From positions 1 to 39,831 of the forward strand of contig NZ_POQU01000027.1 of assembly GCF_002938425.1 (NCBI RefSeq): a stretch of 39,831 bases of DNA, in the 5' to 3' direction. The notes under the pieces were generated by a model, which searched no databases, had not been told where the DNA came from, and saw only the letters and a list, made by a program, of their open reading frames with translations. The translations under genes and the position numbers were made by a program. Origin of the DNA: Blastococcus atacamensis. GTDB taxonomy: Bacteria; Actinomycetota; Actinomycetes; Mycobacteriales; Geodermatophilaceae. Numbering within the stretch: the stretch's first letter is position 1; the number at the start of each line of letters is the position of its first letter. Positions 18,807-34,224 of this stretch are shown here, piece by piece.

Positions 18807-19892
18807 GTGCCCGCCCCCGTGGACCCCGAGATCGCTCTGCGCGAACTCCTCGGGCGCATCGCTCCCGGCACGGCGCTGCGGGACGGCCTGGAGCGCATCC
18901 TCGCCGGTCGGACCGGGGCGCTCATCGTGCTCGGCTACGACCGCGTGGTCGAGTCCATCTGCACCGGCGGCTTCGCCCTGGACGTGGCCCTCTCGGCCAC
19001 CCGGCTGCGCGAGCTGGCGAAGATGGACGGCGCGGTGATCGTGTCCTACGACGGCACGCGCATCGTGCGGGCCGGAGTCCACCTGATGCCCGACCCGACG
19101 GTTCCGACGGAGGAGTCCGGCACCCGGCACCGCACGGCGGAGCGCGTGGCCATCCAGTCCGGCTTCCCGGTCATCTCGGTCAGCCAGTCGATGCACATCA
19201 TCAGCGTCTACGTGGCCGGCCGCCGCTACACCCTCGAGCACCCCACCACCATCCTGGCCCGCGCGAACCAGGCCCTCGCGGCGCTCGAGCGCTACAAGCT
19301 GCGCCTGGACGAGGTGGCCAGCACGCTCTCCGCGCTGGAGATCGAGGACCTGGTCACCGTCCGCGACGCGATGAGCGTCAGCCAGCGGCTGGAGATGGTC
19401 CGCCGGATCGCCGACGAGATCGAAGGTTTCGTCGTGGAGCTCGGCACCGACGGCCGGCTGCTGGCGCTGCAGCTGGACGAGATGCTGGCCGGCGTCGAGG
19501 AGGACCGCGGCCTGCTGGTCCGCGACTACATGCCCTCGGGCGGTCGCCGTCCGCGCACCATCGACCAGGTCCTGACCGATCTGCGGGCGCTCAGCGCCAC
19601 CGAGCTGCTGGACCTGTCCGCCGTCGCCCGGTGCTACGGGCTGCCGACCTCACCGGACGCTCTGGACTCCCCCGTCAGCCCACGTGGTTACCGACTGCTG
19701 GCCCGGGTGCCCCGGCTGCCCGCCGGGATCATCGACCGCCTCGTGGACCACTTCGGCGGGCTGCAGAAGCTGCTGGCGGCGACGATCGAGGACCTCCTCG
19801 CGGTCGAGGGCGTCGGCGAGGCCCGTGCCCGCGGCATCCGCGAGGGGCTCTCCCGCCTCGCCGAGACCTCGATCCTCGACCGCTACAGCTGA
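18807..19892 (+). CDS. disA: DNA integrity scanning diadenylate cyclase DisA
   Basis: 361 residues, the normal DisA length. The N-terminal DAC domain carries the catalytic DGA (74-76, in AKMDGAVIV) and RHR (107-109, in [12 protein letters not shown]). A helical spine follows, and the C-terminal helix-hairpin-helix DNA-binding domain has [20 protein letters not shown] and [20 protein letters not shown]. DisA makes c-di-AMP from two ATP and is inhibited by branched DNA, and RadA is known to modulate DisA activity in other species. The GTG has AGGAG six bases upstream. Its 3' end converges with the Rv3587c-like gene across a copy of the stop-adjacent stem-loop family. Confidence 0.97.
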
Positions 19893-19895
19893 CGG

Positions 19896-19946
19896 CTCCC
19901 CTCCAGGGGCCCGCCGCGAGCTCGCGAGTGGTGGGGAGGAGGGAGG
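19896..19946 (-). repeat. Stop-adjacent two-stem repeat, copy 1
   Basis: Outer arms CTCCCCTCC (19896-19904) and GGAGGGAGG (19938-19946) pair with one mismatch and one G-U. Inner arms CCCGCCGC (19910-19917) and GTGGTGGG (19928-19935) pair with two G-U wobbles. The loop is GAGCTCGCGA. It begins eight bases past the stop codon of the minus gene at 19955, with the conserved AAGGA just before the stem in the minus direction. It is also only three bases from the disA stop. Confidence 0.75.
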
Positions 19947-19954
19947 TCCTTCGA

Positions 19955-20659
19955 CTACTGCAGCGTGAGCGGGGCGTCCGCGGACACCTTGGTGTCCAGT
20001 CGGCCGCGCAACAGGTAGGCACCCGGCGCGGGTGCTCCGCGGGGGGCGGTGCAGGTCGGCTCGCTGGTCAGGCCGCCCCAGACCACGGGAACCACCACGA
20101 CCTCTCCCGGCGCGAGGGTGCGGGGCTCGTCGCTGCTCTCCGGAAAGCAGTCGTTGCTGCCCCAGACCCGGTTGCCGCCCGCGCCGACGAGCACGAGCTC
20201 CTGCAGCTCCTTGTCGAGCGCCCGCACGCACGGGACGCTCCCGGTGTTGCCGACGACGAGCTGGAACGTGGGCTTGCTGCCCACTGCCGCCTGCCCGGGC
20301 GTCCGGACCTCGAGGAGCAGGACGTCGTCGGCGCACGGCCCACCGGCCGGCCGCGCCGGCGCGGCCGGGGCGCTGGGGGGTGATGTGGGCTCGCTGGGCG
20401 CCGCGGGCGTCCGCACCGCAGCGGCCGCCGACGGCACCACCCGGTCCAGGGCCGGCAGCTCGGTGGGCCGGGCGGTGGTCGTCGATGCGGCCGCCTCGCT
20501 GACGCCGGACCGCCGGTCCAGGAACCACACGGTCCCCCAGCCCAGCCCGCCGACGACCGCGACCAGGAGCACCAGCACGACCAGTCGCCGCCGCCAGTAG
20601 ACAGCTGCGGGCAGCGGGCCCACCGGGTGCAACACGCCCGGAACGGTAATCGGCGGCAT
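19955..20659 (-). CDS. Membrane-anchored secreted protein, Rv3587c-like
   Basis: 234 residues from the ATG opening MPPITVPGVLHPVGPLPAAVYWRRR. One transmembrane helix (VLVLLVAVVGGLGWGTVWFL) is followed by a Ser/Pro/Ala/Thr-rich linker. The external domain, from about residue 125, contains LLLEVRTPGQAAVGSKPTFQ and LVVGNTGSVPCVRALDKELQ, has three cysteines and the look of an immunoglobulin-like beta sandwich. Its place between disA and mutY matches Rv3587c of M. tuberculosis, whose function is not established. An ATG 36 bases further upstream is possible but extends into unconserved sequence. Confidence 0.75.
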   Translation of the reverse strand: MPPITVPGVLHPVGPLPAAVYWRRRLVVLVLLVAVVGGLGWGTVWFLDRRSGVSEAAASTTTARPTELPALDRVVPSAAAAVRTPAAPSEPTSPPSAPAAPARPAGGPCADDVLLLEVRTPGQAAVGSKPTFQLVVGNTGSVPCVRALDKELQELVLVGAGGNRVWGSNDCFPESSDEPRTLAPGEVVVVPVVWGGLTSEPTCTAPRGAPAPGAYLLRGRLDTKVSADAPLTLQ

Positions 20660-20712
20660 CGTCGTCGTCCCCCTCGGCGCGCCGCACCGGGCCAACGGCA
20701 GACTGGGTTCCC

Positions 20713-21606
20713 GTGACGTCCGCGACCGCTGCCGAGCCCGACGACGCCGCCGGTGAGGCGATCGTCGACTGGTACGCGACCGCGGCCCGCGACCTCCCCT
20801 GGCGCACCCCTGGGGTCGACGCCTGGGCCGTGCTGGTCAGCGAGGTCATGCTGCAGCAGACGCCGGTCGCCCGGGTGGAGCCGGTGTGGCGCGAGTGGAT
20901 GGACCGCTGGCCGGCCCCGGCGGACCTGGCGGCCACGCCGCCGGGCGAGGTCATCCGCGCCTGGGGCAAGCTCGGCTACCCCCGCCGGGCCCTGCGGCTG
21001 CGCGAGGCGGCCGCGGCGATCGCCGAGCGCCACGGCGGCGTCGTCCCGGCCGACGTGGCCGCCCTGGAGGCGCTCCCGGGGGTCGGCACGTACACGGCCC
21101 GCGCGGTGGCGTGCTTCGGCTACGGCCAGCGACAGCCGGTCGTGGACACCAACGTGCGGCGCGTCGTCGCGCGACTGGTCCACGGCCAGGCGGAAGCCGG
21201 CAGCGCCCGGGCCTCCGACCTCGCCGACATCGCCGCCCTGGCCCCGGCCGACCACGACCGGGCGGTGCGGTTCTCCGTCGCCGTCATGGAGCTCGGAGCG
21301 CTGGTCTGCGCGGCCCGAACGCCGAGGTGCGGCGTCTGCCCGGTCCGGGACCGGTGCGCCTGGCGGCAGGCCGGCTCCCCCGCGCACGACGGGCCGCCGC
21401 GACGGGTGCAGAGGTTCGCCGGCACCGACCGCCAGGTGCGCGGCCGGTTGCTGGACGTGCTCCGAGCGGCGTCCGAGCCGGTGGACGCCGCCGCTCTGGA
21501 CCGGGCCTGGGACGAGCCCGCCCAGCGCGCCCGCTGCCTGGACTCCCTGCTCACCGACGGCCTGGTCGAGCAGACCGCCGACGGCCTCTTCCGGCTGCCT
21601 TCCTGA
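20713..21606 (+). CDS. mutY: A/G-specific adenine glycosylase MutY
   Basis: 297 residues. The catalytic Glu44 lies in SEVMLQQT, the helix-hairpin-helix is LPGVGTYTARAVA (121-133), and catalytic Asp145 is in VVDTNVRR. The [4Fe-4S] cluster pattern C-x6-C-x2-C-x5-C is complete (C199, C206, C209, C215). It removes adenine paired opposite 8-oxoguanine. As in many actinobacteria, the C-terminal MutT-like 8-oxoG recognition domain is short. About 70 residues follow the cluster, ending in a winged-helix-like LLTDGLVEQTADGLFRLP. The GTG start leaves 53 bp to the divergent gene. Confidence 0.95.
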   Translation: MTSATAAEPDDAAGEAIVDWYATAARDLPWRTPGVDAWAVLVSEVMLQQTPVARVEPVWREWMDRWPAPADLAATPPGEVIRAWGKLGYPRRALRLREAAAAIAERHGGVVPADVAALEALPGVGTYTARAVACFGYGQRQPVVDTNVRRVVARLVHGQAEAGSARASDLADIAALAPADHDRAVRFSVAVMELGALVCAARTPRCGVCPVRDRCAWRQAGSPAHDGPPRRVQRFAGTDRQVRGRLLDVLRAASEPVDAAALDRAWDEPAQRARCLDSLLTDGLVEQTADGLFRLPS

Positions 21607-21612
21607 CACGAC

Positions 21613-21648
21613 GGAGGCCGCCCCACCCGAGCGGGTGGAGCGGCCTCC
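21613..21648. terminator. Bidirectional hairpin between mutY and clpC
   Basis: GGAGGCCGC and GCGGCCTCC enclose CCACCC-GAGC-GGGTGG, with one C/A mismatch between the two stems. It starts six bases after the mutY stop and ends 18 bases before the clpC stop, so it can serve both genes. Confidence 0.6.
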
Positions 21649-21666
21649 GAAGGACCTGCGGCGGTC

Positions 21667-24207
<2,541 letters not shown>

Positions 24208-24440
24208 CTGCTGCTTCTCCTCTGACCGGCTGGTCCGGCACTGCTCTCCCCGGAGATGGGGAGGAACACCCGACGTCCGTCGGCGCGCGGGGGCACCGGT
24301 CTTTCCACTGTAGTCGCGGACCACGCCGTCCCGTCGCCGCGCGGCGGGTCGGTGGGTGGCTGCCTGGTCCAACGGCCCCGCGCCCACGGCTGTTCCGTGC
24401 CCGTTACGCCGTGAGCGGACGCCGCGTGGCGACCCCAGGA

Positions 24441-24487
24441 ACGTCGCCAGGCCCGGCTCCCCACACGGGAACCAGGCCTGGCGACGT
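24441..24487. terminator. Long hairpin in the lsr2-clpC gap
   Basis: ACGTCGCCAGGCC (24441-24453) pairs perfectly with GGCCTGGCGACGT (24475-24487). Inside, GGcTCCC and GGGAaCC extend the stem around a CACAC loop with two mismatches. It lies just beyond repeat copy 2 in the direction of lsr2 transcription. The remaining sequence to the clpC ATG (24208-24440) holds the clpC leader and probably its promoter, but I see no convincing -35/-10 or ClgR box. Confidence 0.55.
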
Positions 24488-24498
24488 GACGTCAGCGG

Positions 24499-24549
24499 CC
24501 TGCCTGCAGGGGCCCGCCGCGAGCGTTCGAGCGGTGGGGGGCAGGCAGG
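24499..24549 (-). repeat. Stop-adjacent two-stem repeat, copy 2
   Basis: Outer arms CCTGCCTGC (24499-24507) and GCAGGCAGG (24541-24549) are perfectly paired. Inner arms CCCGCCGC (24513-24520) and GCGGTGGG (24531-24538) pair with one G-U. The loop is GAGCGTTCGA. The conserved TAG-AAGGA runs from the lsr2 stop codon straight into the outer stem. Confidence 0.8.
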
Positions 24550-24554
24550 TCCTT

Positions 24555-24905
24555 CTAGTGAGCGGCCTCGTAGGCCTCGACGACGCCGGCCGGGATGCGG
24601 CCGCGGTCGCTGACCGCGTGACCGTTCTTGCGGGCCCAGTCGCGGATGGCGCCGGCCTGCTCGCGGTCCATGCGGCCGCCGGTGGCACGGGAGCGCCCGC
24701 CGCCGGAAGCGCGGTTGCCACTGCCGCGGCCGACCTTGCGCGCCGCCGAGACGTAGCGGGCGAACGCCTCACGCATCTCCGTGGCGTTCTTCTCCGCCAG
24801 GTCGATCTCGTACGAGGTCCCGTCCAGCGAGAAGCTGACGGTCTCGTCGGCCGGGAGATTCTCGTCGAGGTCGTCGCTCAGGATGACCTGGACCTTGCGC
24901 GCCAT
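24555..24905 (-). CDS. lsr2: Lsr2 nucleoid-associated silencer
   Basis: 116 residues. The N-terminal oligomerisation domain is [20 protein letters not shown] with [21 protein letters not shown] Gly/Arg/Ser-rich linker follows ([13 protein letters not shown]). The C-terminal DNA-binding domain carries the RGR AT-hook-like motif in [15 protein letters not shown] and WARKNGHAV. Lsr2 bridges DNA and silences AT-rich, often foreign, genes, like H-NS. The upstream 150 bp is by far the most AT-rich genomic stretch in this window, fitting autoregulation. It is followed directly by repeat copy 2. Confidence 0.97.
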
Positions 24906-24941
24906 TCGTTCCTCGCTTTTCGCAGCGACCCCGGGAGGCCG

Positions 24942-24976
24942 ATCGATAATTCACACCCCGCGGGTGCGAATCGATT
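24942..24976. promoter_or_regulatory. Imperfect palindrome in AT-rich lsr2 upstream region
   Basis: CACCC-CGC-GGGTG (24954-24966) extends to TTCaCACCC/GGGTGcGAA and is flanked by ATCGAT on both sides (24942-24947 and 24970-24975). On the minus strand a -10-like TATCGA falls within it, 16 bases from TTCGCA. It is the best candidate for the lsr2 promoter and operator. Confidence 0.35.
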
Positions 24977-25054
24977 AAAGCACAAGCCTCTTCCATTAGA
25001 GACATTGCACCCCTGCGACATCTGCCCTTTTGTGATGACCGAAGCGGTCGCCGA

Positions 25055-26575
25055 TCAGGTACTAATTGGTCTCACCAGCGGAAACAGGATGGTCTCGCGG
25101 ATTCCCAGACCGGTGAGGGTCATCATCAAGCGGTCCATGCCCATACCGACGCCGCCCGTGGGCGGCATTCCGTACTCCAGCGCCTCGAGGAAGTCCTCGT
25201 CCAGCGCCATGGCCTCGGGGTCGCCGGCCGCGGCCAGCAGCGCCTGCTGGGTGAACCGCTCGCGCTGGACCACCGGGTCGACGAGCTCCGAGTAGCCGGT
25301 GCCCCGCTCGATCCCCCCGATGTAGAGGTCCCACTTCTCGGCCACGCCCGGCTCGGAGCGGTGCGCGCGCGTCAGCGGCGAGGTGTCCACGGGGTAGTCC
25401 ATGACGAACGTGGGGTCCTGCAGCGACGGCTGGACGAGGGCCTCGAAGATCTCCTCGACGACCTTGCCGTGGATCCAGGCGGGGTCGATGCCGATCTCGT
25501 GGCGTGCGGCCAGGGCGCGCAGCTGCTCGATCGGCGTCTGCGGGGTCACCGTCTCCCCCACCGCCTCGCTGACCAGGTCGAAGAGCTTCACCTGGCGCCA
25601 CTCCCCCGAGAGGTCCACCTCGGTGCCGTCGTGGTGCCGGGCGACGTGGTCGCCGAACAGCGCCGCACAGCTCTCCTGCACCAGTTCGCGGGTGATGGTC
25701 GCGACGTCCTGGTAATCGGCGTAGGCCGCGTAGAACTCCAGCATCGCGAACTCCGGCGAGTGCGAGCTGTCCGCGCCCTCGTTCCGGAAGTTCCGGTTGA
25801 TCTCGAAGACCCGGTCCAGCCCGCCGACGATGCACCGCTTGAGGAACAACTCGGGGGCGATGCGCAGGTAGAGGTCGAGATCGAAGGCGTTCATGTGCGT
25901 GCGGAACGGCCGCGCCGCGGCACCTCCGTGCACGTTCTGCAGCATCGGCGTCTCGACCTCGATGAAGTCGCGCCCACCGAGCCCGGCCCGCAGCGTCGAC
26001 ATCACGGTGGCCCGCTGGCGCACGGTCCTGCGCGCCTCGTCCCGGACGATGAGGTCGACGTAGCGCCGGCGGACCCGCAGCTCCTCGCTCATCGGCTTGT
26101 GCGCGACCGGCAACGGGCGAAGCGACTTGGCGGTGAGCTGCCAGGAGTCCGCGAAGACCGACAGCTCGCCGCGACGCGACGTCCCCACCTCCCCCTCGAC
26201 GAAGACGTGGTCACCGAGGTCGACGTCGGCCTTCCAGGCCGCCAGCGCGTCCTCGCCGACGCGGTCGCGGGACAGCATCACCTGCAGCTCGGCGTCGCCC
26301 TCGCGCAGCGTCGCGAAGGCGAGCTTGCCGGTGTTGCGGGAGAAGATGACCCGGCCGGTCACCCCGACCCGCTGCCCGGTCATCGTGTCGGGCTCCAGCT
26401 CCGGGTGGGCGGCCCGGACGGCGGTCAGCGTCGTCGTCCGCGGCACCGAGACGGGGTAGGGGTCGACGCCGGCGTCGCGCAGCCGGTCGAGCTTCGCGCG
26501 GCGCACACGCATCTGCTCGGGCAGCTCCTCGCTGCCGTCGTCGCCGTTGCCGGGGCCGTTCGGTCCTTCGCTCAC
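25055..26575 (-). CDS. lysS: Lysyl-tRNA synthetase, class II
   Basis: 506 residues. An N-terminal OB-fold anticodon-binding domain has [20 protein letters not shown]. The class II core has motif 1 around [20 protein letters not shown], motif 2 [20 protein letters not shown], and motif 3 [20 protein letters not shown]. The GTG start is eight bases from a TACGCT box; an acidic Gly-rich leader of about 20 residues is present. Its position downstream of coaX and before lsr2 is as in mycobacteria (Rv3598c). Confidence 0.97.
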
Positions 26576-26583
26576 GGGGGGAA

Positions 26584-26589
26584 AGCGTA
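26584..26589 (-). promoter_or_regulatory. -10 box for lysS (near-leaderless)
   Basis: TACGCT on the minus strand, eight bases before the lysS GTG, in the 22-bp gap after coaX. It would allow lysS to be transcribed apart from the pan/coa operon. Confidence 0.4.
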
Positions 26590-26597
26590 CGGGCGGC

Positions 26598-27392
26598 TCA
26601 GCGGGCGGCTTGCGCCCGATGCCGGGCGAAGGCCAGCCGCAGCCCGTGCACGGTCAGGTCGGGCTCCCGCGAGCCGATCGACGCGCAGCTGTCGACCACC
26701 ACGGGGGCGAGCCCACCGGTCGCCACGACGACCGGCGCGGTGCCGAACTGGGCGACCAGCTCCGCGGCGATCCGGGTGACCAGCCCGTCGACGAGACCGG
26801 CGAACCCGAGCACCAGCCCCGACTGCAGCGCGGCCACGGTGTTCTTGCCGATCGCCTGCGGCGGACAGGTCAGCTCGACCGAGCGCAGCTGCGCGGCCCG
26901 GCTGGCCAGCGCGTCCAGGCTGACCTCGACGCCGGGCGCCAGCGCGCCGCCGAGGAACTGCCCGTCGGGACCGACGGCGTCGACGTTGGTGGAGGTGCCG
27001 AAGTCGACGACGACCACCGGCCGGCCGCGCCCGACGGCGTCGCGGCCGAACAGCTCGTGGGCGGCGAGGGCCGTGACGACCCGGTCGGCGCCCACCTCGC
27101 GCGGGTTGTCGACGTGCAGCGGGACGCCGGTGCGCACCCCCGGCCCGATCAGCACGACCGGCACCTCGAGGGAGTCCAGCAGCTGGCGCAGGGAGGGCAG
27201 CAGCGCCGGCACGGTCGAGCAGGCCGCGACGCCGGTGACCTCGGTGTCGCGGAGCAGGCCCCGCCAGACCATGCGGAGCTCGTCGGCGGTGGCCCGGGCC
27301 GCGGTGGTCACCCGCCAGGAGCCCACCCGCCGGTCGCCGTCGAAGGTGGCGAGGACGGTCTGGCTGTTGCCGACGTCGACGGTCAGCAGCAC
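26598..27392 (-). CDS. coaX: Type III pantothenate kinase
   Basis: 264 residues. The ASKHA-fold phosphate motif is [19 protein letters not shown] at the N-terminus, and pantothenate-site segments are [11 protein letters not shown] and [16 protein letters not shown]. The adenosine motif [20 protein letters not shown] follows. It phosphorylates pantothenate, the first step of CoA synthesis. It starts four bases after the panD stop. Mycobacteria also have a CoaA outside this cluster; whether this organism does cannot be seen here. Confidence 0.95.
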
Positions 27393-27396
27393 CGGG

Positions 27397-27822
27397 TCAC
27401 CGGATCGGGACGCCGAGGTCGCTGCGCTGCTGGTCGGGAGCGCCGGGGACGGGGGCCGAGGGGTCCCCGCCCAGCTCGACGACGCGGTTGGCGCCGTCGA
27501 CGTGCACGACCCGCGGGATGTAGCTCTTGGCCTCGGTCTCGTCCATCACGCCGTAGCTGATGAGGATGACCATGTCGCCGGGGTGCACCAGGTGCGCGGC
27601 CGCGCCGTTGATGCCGATGACCCCGCTGCCCCGCTCACCGGGGATCACGTAGGTCTCCAGCCGGGCCCCGTTGGTGATGTCGACGATGGCGACCTGCTCG
27701 CCCGGGATCAGGTCGGCGGCGTCGAGGAGGTCCTCGTCGACCGTCACCGAGCCGACGTAGTGCAGGTCGGCCTGGGTCACCGTGGCGCGGTGGATCTTGG
27801 ACTTGAGCATCGTGCGCATCAT
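27397..27822 (-). CDS. panD: Aspartate 1-decarboxylase (pyruvoyl enzyme)
   Basis: 141 residues. The self-cleavage site is Gly24-Ser25 in [11 protein letters not shown], which yields the pyruvoyl cofactor on the alpha subunit. Other conserved segments are [23 protein letters not shown] and [22 protein letters not shown]. It makes beta-alanine for PanC, the neighbour whose stop overlaps this start by four bases (ATGA). The C-terminal tail is about ten residues longer than the compact E. coli form, as in mycobacteria. Confidence 0.97.
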
Positions 27823-28676
27823 CGGGGGTCTCCCAGCTGGACTGCGGTGTTGTCGAGGAGTCGGGTGCTGCCGGCGCGGACGGCGACGAGCAGGCGGGCG
27901 GGACCGGTGGCCGGCACCGGCCCGAGGTCGGTATCGGTGAGTTCGAGGTAGTCCTGGACCAGTTCGGGGTGGCGGTCCAGCACGGCACGCGCGGCGGCGA
28001 GGACCGCGCCGAACCCCTGCGCTCCGGCGGCCGCCCCGGCGCGCAGCGCGGCGGAGACGGCGGCCGCAGTGGCCCGCTGCTCCGGCGAGAGGTACCGGTT
28101 GCGGCTGGACAGCGCCATGCCGTCGTCCTCGCGGACGGTGGGCACGCCGACGACCTCCACGCCCAGTGCGAGCTCACGGGCCATGCCCCGGACGAGGGTC
28201 AGCTGCTGGTAGTCCTTCTCGCCGAAGAAGGCCAGCTCGGGCCGGACGAGCCCGAACAGCTTCGCGACGACGGTGAGCACGCCGGCGAAGTGGCCGGGCC
28301 GCACCGCACCCTCGAGAACCGCGCCGAGCGGGCCGGGGTCCACCGTGACCCCCAGCGCCCCGCCCGGGTAGATCTCCTCGACCGGCGGGTGGAAGACGAC
28401 GTCGGCGCCCTCCTCGGCCAGCGCGGCCAGGTCGGCGTCCCAGGTGCGGGGGTAGCGGTCGAAGTCCTCGCCGGGGCCGAACTGCGTCGGGTTCACGAAG
28501 ACCGAGACGACGACGCTCCCCGCGCGCTCCCGGGCGGCCCGGACCAGCGTCCGGTGCCCCTCGTGCAGGGCGCCCATCGTGGGGACCAGCGCGACCGGGC
28601 CGGGCAGCTCCGCGAGGAGCGCCCGCAGGTCCGCGACCCTCTCGGCGACGGCGGGACGCGTGCCCAGGGCCGTCAT
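27819..28676 (-). CDS. panC: Pantothenate synthetase
   Basis: 285 residues. ATP-binding motifs are [18 protein letters not shown] (HIGH-like) and the KMSKS-like segment near [11 protein letters not shown]. Also seen are [20 protein letters not shown] and [20 protein letters not shown]. It joins pantoate and beta-alanine. It overlaps the DUF2520 gene upstream by four bases and panD downstream by four, making a tightly coupled operon with coaX. Confidence 0.97.
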
Positions 28677-29617
28677 GGCCGGTCCGCCGGCTGACTGGGT
28701 GAGGAGCTCAGCAGGTCCAGCAGCGGGGCACCCTCGTGCCGCTTGAGCCGGCCGGCGACCAGTGCCCGCTCCGTGGTGCGCCGGGCCATCGCCACGTAGG
28801 CGGCGACCGCCTCGGGCGCCCGTTCCGCCAAGGTGTCGAGGTGGGCCCCGACGGTGCCGACGTCGCCGCGGCTGACCGGTCCGGTGAGCCCGCGATCCCC
28901 GCGGCGGAGGCCGTTGTCCAGAGCCGCGGTGAGCAGCGGGGCGAGCACGCGGGCGGGCTCGGCGACGCCGGCGGTGCGGAGGAGGTCGGCCGCCTCGGCC
29001 ACCAGGGTGACCAGGTGGTTGGCACCGGTGACCAGCGCCGCGTGGTACAGCCCGCGGTCGGCCTCGGCGACGAAGAACGGCTCGCCGCCCATCTCCAGCA
29101 CCAGGGTCTCGGCGACCGGCCGGTGCTCGGGGCGGCTGGTGACGCCGAACGGGGCGCCGTCGAGCCGGTCGGCGTCCTCGGGGGCACCGGAGAACGTCAT
29201 GGCCGGGTGGAGGGCGAGGGCGAGCACCCCGGACTCCGCGGCGGGGGCGAGGACGGCCAGGCCGTGCGCGCCGGAGGTGTGGAAGGCCAGCTGGCCGGCA
29301 CGCCAGGCACCGGTCTCGGCCAGCCCGGAGACCAGGCCGGCGAGCGTGTCGTCGGGAACGGCGAGGACGATCAGGTCAGAGGCGGCGACGACGGCGTCGG
29401 CGGGGACCAGCGGGACGCCGGGCAGCAGTCGGGCGGCGCGCTCGGCGGAGGCGGCGGAGAGGCCCGAGGCGGCGACCACGTCGTGACCGGCGGCGGCGAG
29501 AGCGGCACCGAGGACGGCGCCGACGCGGCCGGCGCCGATGACCCCGACGCGCAGGCGCGCGGGTGCTTCGGACGCGGGAAAGAGCCCGGCGGCTCGGGTC
29601 CTGCGTGCAGTAGGCAT
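28673..29617 (-). CDS. Rossmann-like/DUF2520 NAD(P)-binding protein
   Basis: 314 residues. The N-terminal Rossmann motif is [20 protein letters not shown], with [20 protein letters not shown] after it. [11 protein letters not shown] is the typical DUF2520 segment, and the C-terminal helical domain has [20 protein letters not shown]. The family occurs beside panC in actinobacteria (Rv3603c) and resembles ketopantoate reductase or ProC-like dehydrogenases. A role in pantoate formation is suggested by position only. The ATG selected follows a GAGAGG element; the open frame upstream is not conserved. Confidence 0.9.
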
Positions 29618-29663
29618 CGGTGCACCTCTCGTTCCAGTCCCGTGCGGGTACCGGACGTCGGTC

Positions 29664-29762
29664 GGCCACCGGGGTCGGTGGCCGCGTTGCTGTCGTGCGG
29701 GTCGTGCGTCGGACGGCGCCCACTGCAACCGGATGTGTCACGCGGGCGACGTGCCGCCCGCG
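29664..29762. other. Two hairpins in the gap between divergent genes
   Basis: GGCCACCG-GGGT-CGGTGGCC (29664-29683) and CGCGGGCG-ACGTGC-CGCCCGCG (29741-29762) are perfect 8-bp stems in the 280-bp space between the DUF2520 gene (-) and the SDR (+). They could be operators or leader structures of the pan operon. A TACCGT box at 29862-29867 is a possible SDR -10. Nothing else is recognisable here. Confidence 0.35.
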
Positions 29763-29897
29763 AGTGTGGAACCGCTCCGGGCAGCGCGCAACGCCTGGGG
29801 GCTGTGCCCTAGCTCACCCGTGTGCCGCTCACCCGCGCGACGCGACGGGCGGTCCCCGACCTACCGTGACCCCCGGCACACCGACGAAGGAGGCACC

Positions 29898-30650
29898 GTG
29901 CGCACGTTCGAGGGACGCACCGCCCTGGTCACCGGCGGCAGCCGGGGCATCGGGCTGGGCATCGCCAGGAGCCTGGTGGACCGCGGGGCGCGGGTGGTCC
30001 TGACCGCCCGGAAGCCCGACGCGCTGGCCGAGGCGGTCACCGAGCTGGGCGGCCCCGAGGTAGCCGTCGCCGTCCCGGGGAACGCCGGTGACCCCGCGCA
30101 CCGCGCCGAGGCGGTCCGCACCGCCGTCGACACCTTCGGCAGCCTCGACGTCCTGGTCGGCAACGTCGGCATCAACCCGGCCTACGGGCCCCTGATGGAC
30201 CTGCAGCTCGACGCCTTCCGCAAGATCCTGGACACCAATGTCGTGTCCGCGCTGGGGCTGGTGCAGGAGGCGTGGCGGGCCTGGATGTCCGAGCACGGCG
30301 GGTCGGTGCTGTTCGTCGCCTCGGTGGCCGGGCTGCGCTCCTCGCAGGAGATCGGCGCCTACGGCGTGAGCAAGGCCGCGCTGATCAACCTGACCACTCA
30401 GCTGGCCGTGGAGCTCGCACCCACGGTGCGGGTGAACGCCGTCGCCCCGGCCGTGGTGAAGACGCGGTTCGCCGGCGCGCTGTTCGAGGGCCGGGAGGCC
30501 GAGGCGGCGCAGGCGTACCCGATGGCCCGGCTCGGGACACCGGAGGACATCGGCGAGGCGGCGGCCTACCTGCTCGGCGAGGGCGCCGGCTGGGTCACCG
30601 GCCAGACGCTGGTCATCGACGGCGGCGGGCTCTCGCGCGGACCCCGCTGA
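29898..30650 (+). CDS. SDR family oxidoreductase
   Basis: 250 residues from a GTG with AAGGAGG. The cofactor motif is TGGSRGIG; NVG replaces the usual NAG in LVGNVGINPAYGP; the catalytic Ser/Tyr/Lys are in FVASVAG and YGVSKAAL. The C-terminal half ends GWVTGQTLVIDGGGLSRGP, typical of FabG-like classical SDRs. It may be a 3-oxoacyl-ACP reductase-like or general alcohol dehydrogenase. The asparagine-valine-glycine variation is common in actinobacteria and does not imply loss of activity. The substrate is not predictable. Confidence 0.9.
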   Translation: MRTFEGRTALVTGGSRGIGLGIARSLVDRGARVVLTARKPDALAEAVTELGGPEVAVAVPGNAGDPAHRAEAVRTAVDTFGSLDVLVGNVGINPAYGPLMDLQLDAFRKILDTNVVSALGLVQEAWRAWMSEHGGSVLFVASVAGLRSSQEIGAYGVSKAALINLTTQLAVELAPTVRVNAVAPAVVKTRFAGALFEGREAEAAQAYPMARLGTPEDIGEAAAYLLGEGAGWVTGQTLVIDGGGLSRGPR

Positions 30651-30673
30651 GAAAGGGCCACCGAGCCGTGCGG

Positions 30674-30724
30674 CCCTCTCGCAGGGTCCCGCCGCGAGCC
30701 TGCGAGCGGTGGGGGGCGAGGGGG
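30674..30724 (-). repeat. Stop-adjacent two-stem repeat, copy 3
   Basis: Outer arms CCCTCTCGC (30674-30682) and GCGAGGGGG (30716-30724) pair with one G-U. Inner arms CCCGCCGC (30688-30695) and GCGGTGGG (30706-30713) pair with one G-U. The loop is GAGCCTGCGA. The minus gene at 30733 ends TAG-TAG-AAGGA and runs into the outer stem. The SDR stop is 23 bases to the left. Confidence 0.8.
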
Positions 30725-30732
30725 TCCTTCTA

Positions 30733-32319
30733 CTAGTCGCGGCCCAGCACCCGGGCGAGGACGTCGTCGGAGTCGCCGTCCTCGCGGTAGCGGCGACGCC
30801 GCCGGCCGCCCGACGGCGGGGTGACCCCGTTCTCGGCCAGGATCCGCGCCAGGTCGTCGGAGGTGTCGGGCCCGGTTGGCGGAGCCGGCGGTGCCGACGG
30901 CGCGGACCAGGCGGGTGCGGCGGCCGGGTGCTCGGTGGTGGGCGCGAACTCCGGAGCGGGCGACCAGGCGGGCGGCTCGTCGGTGCGCCGGCGGCGGAGG
31001 GCGTCCTCCGGGGCGGACGGCGCCGGAGGCGGGTCGAGCAGCGACCGGGCGGCCAGCCAGTCCATCGGCGTCTGCGGTCGCTCAGGCGGCGCGGGCGGCA
31101 TCACCGGGGACGACGTGACGACCGGCGAGGCCACCGTGTGCGGCGGGGCGGGCGGCTGGTCCGCGACCGGGGACCGCGAGGAGCCCAGGTAGGGGTCGGA
31201 CTCGTGGGCGGCGGCCCGAGGGTGCCGGTCGAACGCCGGGGGGACCTCCCGGACCGGCGGGCGCACGGGCTCGGGCGGCTCGGAGGCGTAGCGGGCGTCG
31301 GAGAGGTAGCTCGGCAACGGCTCGTACGCCGTCGGCTCGGACCGCCCCGGAACCAGCGGTCCGAGGGGCACCACCGTCGGCGGGGCCGGGGGCACCGAGG
31401 GCCGCGGAGGCGCCGCGGCCTCCGGGGGGACGACCGGGAACGCGGTCGTCGGCGGTGCCGCCTGGTAGGGCGAGGAGGTCCACGACGGGCCACCCCGCAC
31501 CTGCTCGAACTGCTGGGTCCTCGGTGGCTCGTCCAGCCGGATCGCCGGCCATCCCCCGGTCAGCTCCCGCGGCGGCGACTCGTCGCTCCACCCCGCGCCG
31601 TCCAGAGTGCGCGACGGCCCGTCGATGCGGGACGCCTCCCCCGGCAACCGGCCGGCCTGGGTGCGCATGACGATCCGCTCGACCAGCATCTCGCTGGACA
31701 GCTGCTCGGAGAGCTCCAGGCGCAGCCGGCCCATGTCCTCGCGCAACGCGCCGATCTGCCCGAGGTCGCCCCGCAGCGCGGTCAGCTCGGCGACGTCATC
31801 GCGCAGGGCGGCCACCCGGGCGATCTCGTCGCGCAGGCCCGACAGCGAGGCGATCTCACCGCGCAGTGCGGACACCCGGGCGACGTCGTCGCGCAGGGCC
31901 GCCACCCGGGCGATCTCGTCGCGCAGGCCCGACAGCGAGGCGATCTCCCCCCGCAGCGCGTCGAGCTCCTCGCGCATGAAGTCCTCGGCCTCGCGGCGCA
32001 GCTCGTTCTCCAGCTCCAGCTCGTACTCGCGGCGGGCGACGACCTCGCGGTCGAGCTCCGCCTCGTAGGCCCGGCGCAGGTCCGCCTCGCGGGCGGCGGC
32101 GCGGACCCGGTCGGTGCCGCGGCGACCGGCCGCGAACGTGGCGAGGACGAACGCCCAGGCCACGGCCACGACCGCCAGTCGCAGCAGCTGCGGGTTGCTG
32201 GTCAGGAACACGACCAGCGTGGCGGCGGCGGCGAGCGCGAAGCCGCCGATCTGCACGAGGACGCGGCTGTCGGGGAGGACGGGGCCACGGGCGACGTCGT
32301 CGTCCTCGCGGCGGGGCAT
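30733..32319 (-). CDS. Membrane protein with decapeptide-repeat coiled coil (DUF6779-like, Rv3604c position)
   Basis: 528 residues. Two N-terminal transmembrane helices (about 20-40 and 44-64) are followed by a charged helix (AYEAELDREVVARREYELEL). Next come about eight tandem ten-residue repeats of the form (A/G)LR(D/G)(E/D)(I/V)AR(V/L)x, about residues 115-200. The rest is a long Pro/Ala/Glu-rich disordered tail, with a short conserved end DDLARILAENGVTPPSGGRR and VLARVLGRD. Its place before the DUF2520 gene matches M. tuberculosis Rv3604c. Function unknown; it could be a cytoplasmic scaffold on the membrane. A TACGCT box is six bases before the ATG. Confidence 0.75.
   Translation of the reverse strand: MPRREDDDVARGPVLPDSRVLVQIGGFALAAAATLVVFLTSNPQLLRLAVVAVAWAFVLATFAAGRRGTDRVRAAAREADLRRAYEAELDREVVARREYELELENELRREAEDFMREELDALRGEIASLSGLRDEIARVAALRDDVARVSALRGEIASLSGLRDEIARVAALRDDVAELTALRGDLGQIGALREDMGRLRLELSEQLSSEMLVERIVMRTQAGRLPGEASRIDGPSRTLDGAGWSDESPPRELTGGWPAIRLDEPPRTQQFEQVRGGPSWTSSPYQAAPPTTAFPVVPPEAAAPPRPSVPPAPPTVVPLGPLVPGRSEPTAYEPLPSYLSDARYASEPPEPVRPPVREVPPAFDRHPRAAAHESDPYLGSSRSPVADQPPAPPHTVASPVVTSSPVMPPAPPERPQTPMDWLAARSLLDPPPAPSAPEDALRRRRTDEPPAWSPAPEFAPTTEHPAAAPAWSAPSAPPAPPTGPDTSDDLARILAENGVTPPSGGRRRRRYREDGDSDDVLARVLGRD
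31801..31947 (-). repeat. 90-bp direct duplication inside the coiled-coil repeats
   Basis: A segment of about 57 bases starting at 31801 recurs, nearly identical, starting at 31891. The period of 90 bases equals three decapeptides (30 residues), showing recent in-frame duplication within the repeat array of the membrane protein. Confidence 0.8.
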
Positions 32320-32325
32320 GGGTCC

Positions 32326-32331
32326 AGCGTA
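32326..32331 (-). promoter_or_regulatory. -10 box for the coiled-coil membrane protein (leaderless)
   Basis: TACGCT on the minus strand, six bases before the ATG at 32317-32319. Confidence 0.5.
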
Positions 32332-32421
32332 GCGACGAGTGGCGTTCACGGGGAGCATCCGCGCCCGTGCCCACGGTTGCCGCCGTCGGATGAGCGCCGT
32401 CCCGGGTGGGACAGTGACCCG

Positions 32422-33030
32422 GTGAGCCTGACCCTGCTGGACTGGCGGCGCCGAGTCGCCGCGCTGCACGCCGCCGTCCGGAACTCCGCCGACCCCGAGC
32501 AGGGCTGGCAGCGGTGGCGGGACGGCCGCGACGAGCTGTTCGCCGGCCATCCGCAGTCGCCCCTGGACGCCGACGCCCGCGCCGGCTTCACCGGGCTGCC
32601 GGTGGCCCCCTACGACCCGGCATTCCGGTTCGAGCCGGCCCTGGGAGCCGCGGAGCCGCTGCGGCGGGAGGTGCCCACGGCGGCCGACGGCGTCGTGCCG
32701 CTCGAGCGGATCGGCGCCGTCGAGCTCCCCGGCGTGGGACGGCTGGACGTCTGGTGGGTGGCGCTCTACGGCGGCGGCGTCTTCCTGCCGCTGCGGGACG
32801 GCACCGCGGGCGACACCACCTACGGCGGCGGCCGCTACCTGCTGGACACCGTCAAGGGCGCCGACCTCGGTGGGGCCGACGGCCGGCTGGTGGTCGACCT
32901 GAACTTCGCCTACCACCCGTCCTGCGCCTACGACCCGCGGTGGTCCTGCCCCCTGGCCCCGGAGGGCAACCGGGTGCAGACGCCGGTCACCGCCGGGGAG
33001 CAGCTGCCCCCCGGCGGCTGGTACGCGTGA
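32422..33030 (+). CDS. DUF1684 domain protein
   Basis: 202 residues from a GTG. Conserved DUF1684 elements are the early WRRRVAALHAAVRN and WQRWRDGRDELFAGHPQSPL, then YDPAFRFEP. LPLRDGTAGDTTYGGGRYLL and the ending DLNFAYHPSCAYDPRWSCPL with PEGNR complete the pattern. The cysteine, histidine and aspartates of the YHPSCAYD segment are invariant in the family as I know it. Function is not established. It is divergent from the coiled-coil gene and converges with proX through repeat copy 4. Confidence 0.87.
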   Translation: MSLTLLDWRRRVAALHAAVRNSADPEQGWQRWRDGRDELFAGHPQSPLDADARAGFTGLPVAPYDPAFRFEPALGAAEPLRREVPTAADGVVPLERIGAVELPGVGRLDVWWVALYGGGVFLPLRDGTAGDTTYGGGRYLLDTVKGADLGGADGRLVVDLNFAYHPSCAYDPRWSCPLAPEGNRVQTPVTAGEQLPPGGWYA

Positions 33031-33043
33031 CCCGCTGGAACGG

Positions 33044-33094
33044 CCGCCCTTCAGGGGCCCGCGCCGAGTGTGCGAGGCGTGGGGGGAAGGGCGG
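33044..33094 (-). repeat. Stop-adjacent two-stem repeat, copy 4
   Basis: Outer arms CCGCCCTTC (33044-33052) and GAAGGGCGG (33086-33094) pair perfectly. The inner arms are changed on both sides, CCCGCGCC (33058-33065) with GGCGTGGG (33076-33083), and still pair with one G-U. The loop is GAGTGTGCGA. The proX stop TAG-AAGGA leads into the outer stem, as in copy 2. Confidence 0.82.
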
Positions 33095-33099
33095 TCCTT

Positions 33100-34089
33100 C
33101 TACTGGGCGACCGAACCGTCGGTGGTGAACACCAGACCGATGGACACCTCGCCCTGCTGGATCGCCGCCTTGGTCAGCGGGCCACCGGCGTCGAACTCCT
33201 GGAAGCCCGCGAAGTCGAGGCCGTAGGTGTCCTCCAGGCCGGGCTGGCAGAACGGCCGGGTCGGGCACTCACCCGGACCGCCGAGCACGAGCGATCCGTC
33301 ACCGCAGGCGTCGGCCAGCTCCGACAGCGTGGTGACCCCCAGGTCGTCGGCGAACTCCCGGGTGACGGCGAATGCGTTCTGGTTGGCGGCGTCGGAGGGC
33401 TCGCCGAAGACCAGCCCGGCCTCCTCGGCCAGCGGCGTGAGCGCTGCGACCGTCTCGTCGACGTCGCTGGACGCCACCTGGGTCGCCTCGTCGCCCTCGA
33501 GGAACTCGGTGACCGTCGCGAGGTACTCCGGGTGCACCTGGATCTCACCGCGCTGCAGGGCGGGCAGGTAGAGCTCGCGGTTGCCGGTGGGCTGCACCGT
33601 CGCGGAGAACCCGGCCGCCTCCAGCACGTCGGCGTAGATGTTGGCCAGGATCGTCGGCTCGGAGAAGTTGCCGCCGCCGACGACGATCTCCCCGCTGCCC
33701 TGCTCCAGGCCGCCGGTGTCGACGTTCTCCTCGACCCAGGCGGCGGCGGCGTCCTCGGGGCTCTGCCGCTCCACGTCGACGGCGACGTTCAGGTTGCCCA
33801 GCGCTTCGAGGGTCAGCGCCTCCGACACCGCGTCCAGCGCCGGCACGAGCGCGGGGTTGGCCTCGGCGGCCGCGGCGTTGACCGCCGGGATGAGGTTGTC
33901 GGCGTTCTGCAGCCCCTGGTCGTCCTCGAGGACGACCAGCTGGTCGCCGGGGACGGGCGCGCAGGCGTTCCCGGAGGCCTGCGTGGTGTCCGCTCCCCCG
34001 CCGGTGCCGGAGGAGCCCGACTCGCCGCACGCGGCCGTCGTCAGGGCGACCAGTGCGAGAGGAACGATGTACCGGATACGCGTGCGCAT
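33100..34089 (-). CDS. proX: Glycine betaine/osmoprotectant-binding lipoprotein with permuted domain order
   Basis: 329 residues. A lipoprotein signal peptide ends at TTAAC (Cys21). Residues about 50-125 (LVVLEDDQGLQNADNLIPAV, then LDAVSEALTLEALGNLNVAV) match the C-terminal part of normal OpuAC/ProX proteins. Residues about 134-329 (IVVGGGNFSEPTILANIYAD, NRELYLPALQRGEIQVHPEY, then ending IGLVFTTDGSVAQ) match the normal N-terminal and middle parts. The order is therefore circularly permuted compared with, for example, M. tuberculosis ProX. It should deliver betaine-like solutes to the two permeases upstream. It is separated from proW by 135 bp containing small inverted repeats. Confidence 0.88.
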   Translation of the reverse strand: MRTRIRYIVPLALVALTTAACGESGSSGTGGGADTTQASGNACAPVPGDQLVVLEDDQGLQNADNLIPAVNAAAAEANPALVPALDAVSEALTLEALGNLNVAVDVERQSPEDAAAAWVEENVDTGGLEQGSGEIVVGGGNFSEPTILANIYADVLEAAGFSATVQPTGNRELYLPALQRGEIQVHPEYLATVTEFLEGDEATQVASSDVDETVAALTPLAEEAGLVFGEPSDAANQNAFAVTREFADDLGVTTLSELADACGDGSLVLGGPGECPTRPFCQPGLEDTYGLDFAGFQEFDAGGPLTKAAIQQGEVSIGLVFTTDGSVAQ

Positions 34090-34224
34090 GGCCCCGCCTT
34101 CTGTGTCCCGTGGTCGCTGCTCGACCACGCGTGTCTGGCGGGTGGACCCCGCCCGACCATGGAACGCCGCAGGTCGGTCGTGCGCAATCGGTCGGGTGGG
34201 CTGTTAGCGATCCGTGACCTCACC

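Follow-up and report, generated by a model that had tools for sequence, protein, structure and literature searches.

The window considered here comprises 39,831 nt of Blastococcus atacamensis DNA (assembly GCF_002938425.1, contig NZ_POQU01000027.1, positions 1-39,831 of the + strand; the genome is 3.9 Mb) and carries four intergenic copies of a two-stem palindromic element, each beside the stop codon of a gene on the - strand (Table 1). The element recurs throughout this genome and in most genomes of its family and is probably a mobile repeat akin to repetitive extragenic palindromes (REPs). A sequence-only reading of the same DNA had described these four copies and their common plan, and when the window is scanned with a covariance model, those four and no others match; that reading had also proposed them as a possible device of the minus-strand mRNAs, a view that the strand and turnover data presented below do not support.

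The four sites and their genes

Our own gene caller places copies 1, 3 and 4 in convergent gaps: copy 1 between a disA-like gene (+) and a gene (-) without a Pfam match, copy 3 between a + gene that ends at 30650 and a DUF6779 gene (-), and copy 4 between a DUF1684 gene (+) and a proX-like gene (-). Copy 2 adjoins the lsr2 stop codon, a TAG at 24557-24555 on the - strand. Pfam bears out two of the identities proposed earlier, Lsr2 and OpuAC (ProX-like), and adds DUF6779 for the gene at copy 3; the label "Rv3587c-like" could not be confirmed because the gene at copy 1 has no Pfam match. Within the DUF6779 gene, window positions 31731-31970 hold six in-register 30-nt direct repeats that encode a 10-residue protein repeat. 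Downstream of lsr2 and copy 2 lies a separate hairpin, probably a terminator, and a similar G+C-rich hairpin, judged by eye, recurs downstream in lsr2 loci with or without the element. An Rfam 15 scan of the window at the gathering score returned nothing at the element sites and only a tRNA at 2235-2307.

Table 1. Copies of the element and neighbouring features in the window
Feature	Positions	Strand	Basis
Element copy 1	19887..19954 (stems 19896-19946)	+ (better-folding strand)	model, 74.0 bits
Element copy 2	24490..24557 (stems 24499-24549)	+	model, 81.2 bits
Element copy 3	30665..30732 (stems 30674-30724)	+	model, 82.0 bits
Element copy 4	33035..33102 (stems 33044-33094)	+	model, 82.1 bits
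Gene anchored by copy 1, no Pfam match	19955..20623	-	start by gene caller
lsr2, anchored by copy 2	24555..24905	-	open reading frame; Pfam Lsr2
DUF6779 gene, anchored by copy 3	30733..32319	-	start by gene caller; Pfam
proX-like gene, anchored by copy 4	33100..34128	-	longest open reading frame (gene-caller start 34089); Pfam OpuAC
Separate hairpin, probable terminator, downstream of lsr2 and copy 2	24441..24488	-	sequence inspection

Architecture and covariation

Read 5' to 3' on the + strand, a copy consists of (GAA)CGG, an outer arm, AGGGN, an inner arm, the loop GAGCNTGCGA or a similar one, an inner arm, two bases, an outer arm and TCCTTC: a 9-bp outer stem, a 5-nt spacer, an 8-bp inner stem, a 10-nt GAG....CGA loop and a 2-nt spacer, with TCCTT beside the minus-strand stop. 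The window copies measure 51 nt from one end of the outer stem to the other. The pairing can be extended outwards by setting GAACGG on the left against TCCTTC on the right, interrupted by a C·C mismatch; of 36 copies, only 19, 25 and 25 have the three outermost of these pairs. The proposed junction of copies 2-4 with the stop codon, TAG-AAGGA on the gene strand, is generally as described, except that the gene at copy 3 ends one codon earlier (TAG TAG AAGGA). Allowing up to 3 mismatches, the core pattern has 3 matches in the window (copy 4 is missed) against 0 in 100 shuffles; genome-wide it occurs at 75 places, against 0 for a reversed-pattern control.

The covariance model (68 positions) was trained on 36 copies, all with an outer stem of 9 bp; 89.1% of their cells are paired, as compared with 48-62% for slid structures. 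Twelve of the 22 pairs show two-sided changes, and the 64 double-change cells far exceed the 16.1 of shuffled alignments (0 of 500 shuffles reached as high). The covariation first noticed in four copies thus holds in a larger set, and also among 106 copies from named relatives, none of which is in the model: 93.0% of cells are paired and 174 are double changes, against 37.6 in shuffles, in an alignment that was fitted to the model and is biased towards its structure. Folding energies are more uneven. On the + strand, copies 2 and 4 fold better than their shuffles (z -2.76 and -3.83), which is not clearly so for copies 3 and 1 (z -0.92 and 0.17); on the mRNA strand, copies 2 and 4 score -2.88 and -3.32.

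Which strand folds

If the pairing is conserved, which strand is it conserved for? The inner stem, counted earlier as 8 bp, is complete on the + strand only, where it includes a G·T pair; in the minus-strand mRNA, this is an A·C mismatch in 4/4 window copies, and twice in copy 1. Among 71 copies obtained with a search pattern that prefers GT at this inner pair, GT occurs 49 times, GC 12, AT 6 and AC once. A second pair, which lies outside the search pattern, is GT in 32/36 and 95/105 copies, and AC is absent from both sets. Folding energy is lower on the + strand in 65 of the 71 copies, equal in 1 and worse in 5, and tandem G·A pairs in the loop are possible, by inspection, on this strand only. 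Variable outer pairs lean the same way (GT:AC 20:10 by hand count, p 0.05); this bias is weak, and the strand preference may therefore be partly shared ancestry. Relative to the anchored gene, the strand that folds better is the antisense one, and the near-fixed wobbles and possible loop tandem G·A suit this strand, not the mRNA for which the structure had been proposed. The G·T/A·C asymmetry would equally suit a folded single DNA strand. Loci from named relatives (at least 80) were all fetched by the exact core pattern, which fixes the inner G·T, so that this pair was not used as strand evidence in them. The reported lack of a U tract is true of the mRNA strand; its folded counterpart has UCCUUC after the stem. 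A simple consensus terminator scan found none at the four window sites.

Position relative to stop codons

Positions were tabulated for the first 134 of at least 148 places in this genome; 23 lacked flanking sequence, leaving 111 copies, 8 of them with less than 900 nt on one side. Neighbour classes and distances come from our own codon-bias gene caller, not from annotation. A hundred copies could be classed: 54 are antisense between tandem genes, 28 lie between convergent genes, 14 are sense between tandem genes and 4 lie between divergent genes; the rest fall inside a gene call (7) or have no neighbour (4). The antisense:sense ratio between tandem genes, 54:14, recurs as 48:8 in the named relatives, for which 108 of 123 model matches were used. 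Convergent gaps are over-represented (28/100 copies against 44/300 background gaps of at least 50 nt) and divergent gaps are depleted (4/100 against 61/300); the background, both for gap classes and for stop codons, was taken from these fetched loci too, anchored genes included.

The placement is sharp. A stop codon on the opposite strand lies within 12 nt of TCCTT in 81/111 copies, 77 of which have it at -3 to +4. Among these 81, the distance d is 0 in 24 and +2 in 28; d=+1 is nearly absent both here (0/81) and among relatives (4/85), where 78/85 copies lie at d -2 to +5, 45 of them at the single peak of +2. A 7-nt window at the stop holds 73 of 82 copies, against 16.9 expected under uniform placement in the same gaps, and 48 of 57 where the gap leaves 30 nt or more, against 5.1 expected. 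In convergent pairs, 26/28 copies adjoin the gene to which they are antisense, and for 12/28 the stop of the other gene is no more than 15 nt away. Half of the sense copies after tandem genes (7/14) are also within 5 nt of a stop, so stop proximity is not restricted to one orientation. The stop-codon and strand preferences noticed at four sites thus hold genome-wide and in the named relatives. What the sequence-only reading had named as telling against it, that is, copies without strand or stop preference, an absence of covariation, or a mobile element with conserved outer arms, was not seen in the form in which it was worded.

A fixed target word was considered as an explanation. TGA occupies d=+2 in 28/81 anchored copies, but the corresponding TCA is found in only 1/30 of the others; the exact placement at stop codons is accounted for neither by a target word nor by tolerance alone. 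Some stops may belong to the element itself. TAG is enriched among anchored stops (26/81 against 82/511 in the background); CTA, which reads TAG on the gene strand, directly follows TCCTT in 24/111 copies and in 5/30 of those away from a called stop; and TAG stands at d=0 in 18 copies, with a preceding base that makes GTAG in 9 (recount). Single loci differ: the four copies at a proX stop have TAG (3) or TAA (1), against TGA in 12 and TAG in 3 of 15 element-free loci; the 12 filled lsr2 loci have TAG in 2 and TGA in 10; and a gene whose tail we take to be GroEL-like stops with TAG in this genome (G000) and with TGA in a near relative (G013). The element therefore can supply a stop codon, but often does not. 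The terminus of GTAG REPs is reported to supply TAG stops often (PMC3733652).

Distribution and turnover

The B. atacamensis genome has at least 148 model matches at E up to 0.01 (150 candidates scored). Within Geodermatophilaceae, 101/112 genomes have a match (threshold E 1e-5), and in about 60 of these the 45 candidates scored per genome were all taken up, which makes their counts lower bounds; the other 11 genomes, which gave none, are G022, G045 and the nine that represent genera g22-g24. Copies are few in G010 and G021. Within the genus, counts run from 0, 2, 4, 13, 24 and 36 up to at least 129 (128 candidates scored). In a phylum sample of 296 genomes, this genome matched, and the 295 others gave one marginal single match (E 5.2e-5); the element is essentially confined to the family.

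Copies do not stay long at their sites. In a comparison covering 800 kb of G013, 16 of 22 syntenic sites lack a model match in G013, although one of these (C75:41391) looks like a degenerate copy and two more (C75:14675 and C138:14436) are possible remnants by eye. The sites that do match hold three copies in the same orientation, two in the opposite one and, at lsr2, a composite of both; at C151:4981, a same-orientation site, both stems have been replaced relative to G013. Across the genus, the element is present, by eye, at 12/22 lsr2 loci and 6/21 proX loci. Tail-to-tail pairs, sense and then antisense, stand directly 3' of the lsr2 stop in G013 (L305:15272-15394), G012 (L312:4440-4560) and G005 (L337:15272-15402). 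Such patchy, composite or opposite occupancy is consistent with a repeat whose copies move and are lost or exchanged, and rapid gain and loss at the lsr2 and proX sites and in G013 speaks against a lasting 3' element of these genes and points to a mobile, REP-like repeat.

Other palindromes occur at some of these sites. In the G013 stretches examined, a second one, GGCCGAAATGGCCATNTNGGCC, has 4 exact copies (L346:6857-6878, L349:16263-16284, L355:11589-11610 and L372:8886-8907), and close forms of it lie at two sites that hold the element in G000. Several relatives that have no element at the proX stop (L281, L282, L283 and L289, for example) share another hairpin at the 3' end of this gene, GTCCTGGCTCACC ... 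GGTGAGCCAGGAC and TGATCAGGT(C)ACCTGATCA-like.

Candidate sources of mobility were searched for. A parent element is not apparent: of 11 close pairs of copies listed, 5 had the called genes between them scanned by Pfam (10 proteins scanned in all), one gene each at C163, C85, C75 and C136 and two for window copies 3-4, and these are ordinary: NAD-binding dehydrogenase, DUF1206, nucleotidyl transferase, AhpC/TSA, DUF6779 and DUF1684. A phage-borne repeat was set aside, as viral contigs gave 0 matches to the exact core pattern, the one pattern used.

Interpretation and alternatives

We think it probable that the element is a family-specific REP-like repeat of ~60-70 nt, with more than 100 copies per genome in many species, that is kept in antisense orientation just past stop codons as a 3' boundary. 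The support is of several kinds: dispersion, a covarying two-stem fold, near-confinement to one family, fast gain and loss, tail-to-tail pairs and tight antisense placement at stops. The repeat would have spread as a small non-autonomous mobile palindrome, moved by an enzyme other than RAYT. Its + strand hairpin with a UCCUUC tail would halt RNA polymerase travelling against the gene, and copies would be retained where an antisense-facing hairpin is non-polar for the gene or operon; a sense copy would be polar, which would explain the skews between tandem genes. Antisense or convergent transcription could then end at the stop codon, while the weaker hairpin on the mRNA strand, which stands no more than 15 nt from the stop, might delay ribosomes that are terminating there, by analogy with E. 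coli REPs. A more specific version, in which translation stops guide insertion or retention of a palindrome 0-3 nt past the stop and antisense to the gene, with no known transposase, forming a non-polar 3' boundary for ~100 genes per genome across the family, is put forward as a tentative, rather doubtful proposal.

Several points weigh against the favoured reading. The boundary and ribosome roles are ones that we infer from sequence. The RAYT family (Y1_Tnp, PF01797) is found in 0/112 family genomes (controls matched in 5/14) and, in another scan, in 0/24; a RAYT-driven REP or REPIN was therefore rejected, and no mobilising enzyme was found. Pairs of filled and empty sites gave no clear target duplication and no exact insertion boundary, and some "empty" sites may once have held a copy that was later deleted. 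The element is also longer than REPs, mostly solitary and without an invariant GTAG or CGTC tag.

Of the earlier interpretation, the conserved, covarying pairing and the stop and strand preference are supported; a role mainly as an mRNA device and a lasting role for these particular genes are not. A specialised device that serves the 3' end of the mRNA of the minus-strand gene, be it a sense terminator, a stabiliser, or a ribosome-release or coupling element, would explain the tight spacing to that gene's stop, and a hairpin does form on the mRNA strand of copies 2 and 4; we nevertheless regard it as unlikely, given the near-fixed A·C mismatches, the better fold of the other strand in most copies, the lack of a U tract, the loss of copies at orthologous genes and the separate hairpin that lsr2 has beyond the element. 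The strand that folds, its UCCUUC tail and the excess of convergent gaps fit a dedicated intrinsic terminator of the antisense direction, which would insulate 3' ends and owe its spread less to transposition than to ordinary selection and recombination. This too seems improbable: the terminator scan was blank at all four sites, and fast turnover, with zero copies in some family genomes, is odd for an essential signal.

The covariation could also arise if the arms copy each other during replication, which would keep the pairing without selection on structure. Such template correction would fit the wholesale change of outer stems between copies, even at the site C151:4981 shared with G013, but should erase G·T pairs, which are near-fixed at the pair outside the search pattern, and leaves the conserved loop unexplained; as the main cause it is quite unlikely. 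Integron attC sites adjoin a stop codon and fold on the strand antisense to the gene. The element shares this geometry, variable arms included, yet its copies are scattered by ordinary chromosomal genes instead of standing in cassette arrays and the usual core-site boxes were not seen by eye, so that an attC-like folded single-strand recombination site is highly improbable.

Comparison with known systems

The element resembles REPs in the broad sense: at least 148 dispersed palindromes, only 7/111 inside gene calls and 96/100 between tandem or convergent genes. The GTAG and CGTC super-families are reported to lie downstream of ORFs (open reading frames), between tandem or convergent genes and near 3' ends (Di Nocera et al. 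2013, PMC3733652) and share with the element many palindromic copies, the 3'-end location and a TAG that often comes from the terminus; CGTC REPs lack a dedicated transposase too. They measure 20-40 bp, as against 68 model positions, two stems and mostly solitary copies here, and the strong antisense orientation and nucleotide-scale stop spacing set the element apart. There is no constant unpaired GTAG tag and no partner RAYT, nor, by eye in the listed copies, a constant CGTC beside the stem, and close pairs are few. Small palindromes, variable copy number and occasional paired copies recall REP/RAYT systems and REPINs (PMC2817692), from which the absence of Y1_Tnp in 112 family genomes is the difference.

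In E. coli, REPs closer than 16 nt to a stop are reported to reduce translation and to stall ribosomes, and 446 of the 4,072 predicted there are at most 15 nt away from one (PMC12306157). The element is likewise close enough to meet a terminating ribosome, but what is a minority in E. coli is the rule here (77/111 at -3 to +4 of an opposite-strand stop). Intrinsic and bidirectional terminators share the G+C-rich hairpin between convergent genes and a pyrimidine tail (UCCUUC) on one strand; the element differs in being a repeat family with a conserved loop and a U-poor tail, not kept at orthologous genes. Bacterial miniature inverted-repeat transposable elements are similarly short and non-coding, with partly inverted ends (CTGGAACGGCC / CTAGAAGGACC here, by eye), but for the element no clear target duplication was seen and no parent transposon found.

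A search of open literature by titles and abstract openings found no description of the repeat; subscription journals and preprints lay outside it, so absence from print is not established. The available text of PMC3733652 mentions no actinobacteria, Geodermatophilus, Blastococcus or Frankia, and the repeats named in the accessible parts of PMC3035280 and PMC9686282 concern assembly, CRISPR or isoprene units. The element brings a REP-like family to a group of high-G+C actinobacteria for which the literature searched gave none, with nucleotide-scale stop-codon anchoring and an antisense orientation sharper than in the REPs of the papers cited. Should the boundary role hold, the element would be a testable example of a selfish repeat that has been domesticated as a 3'-end signal, and would help to trace how palindromes lacking a RAYT are mobilised.

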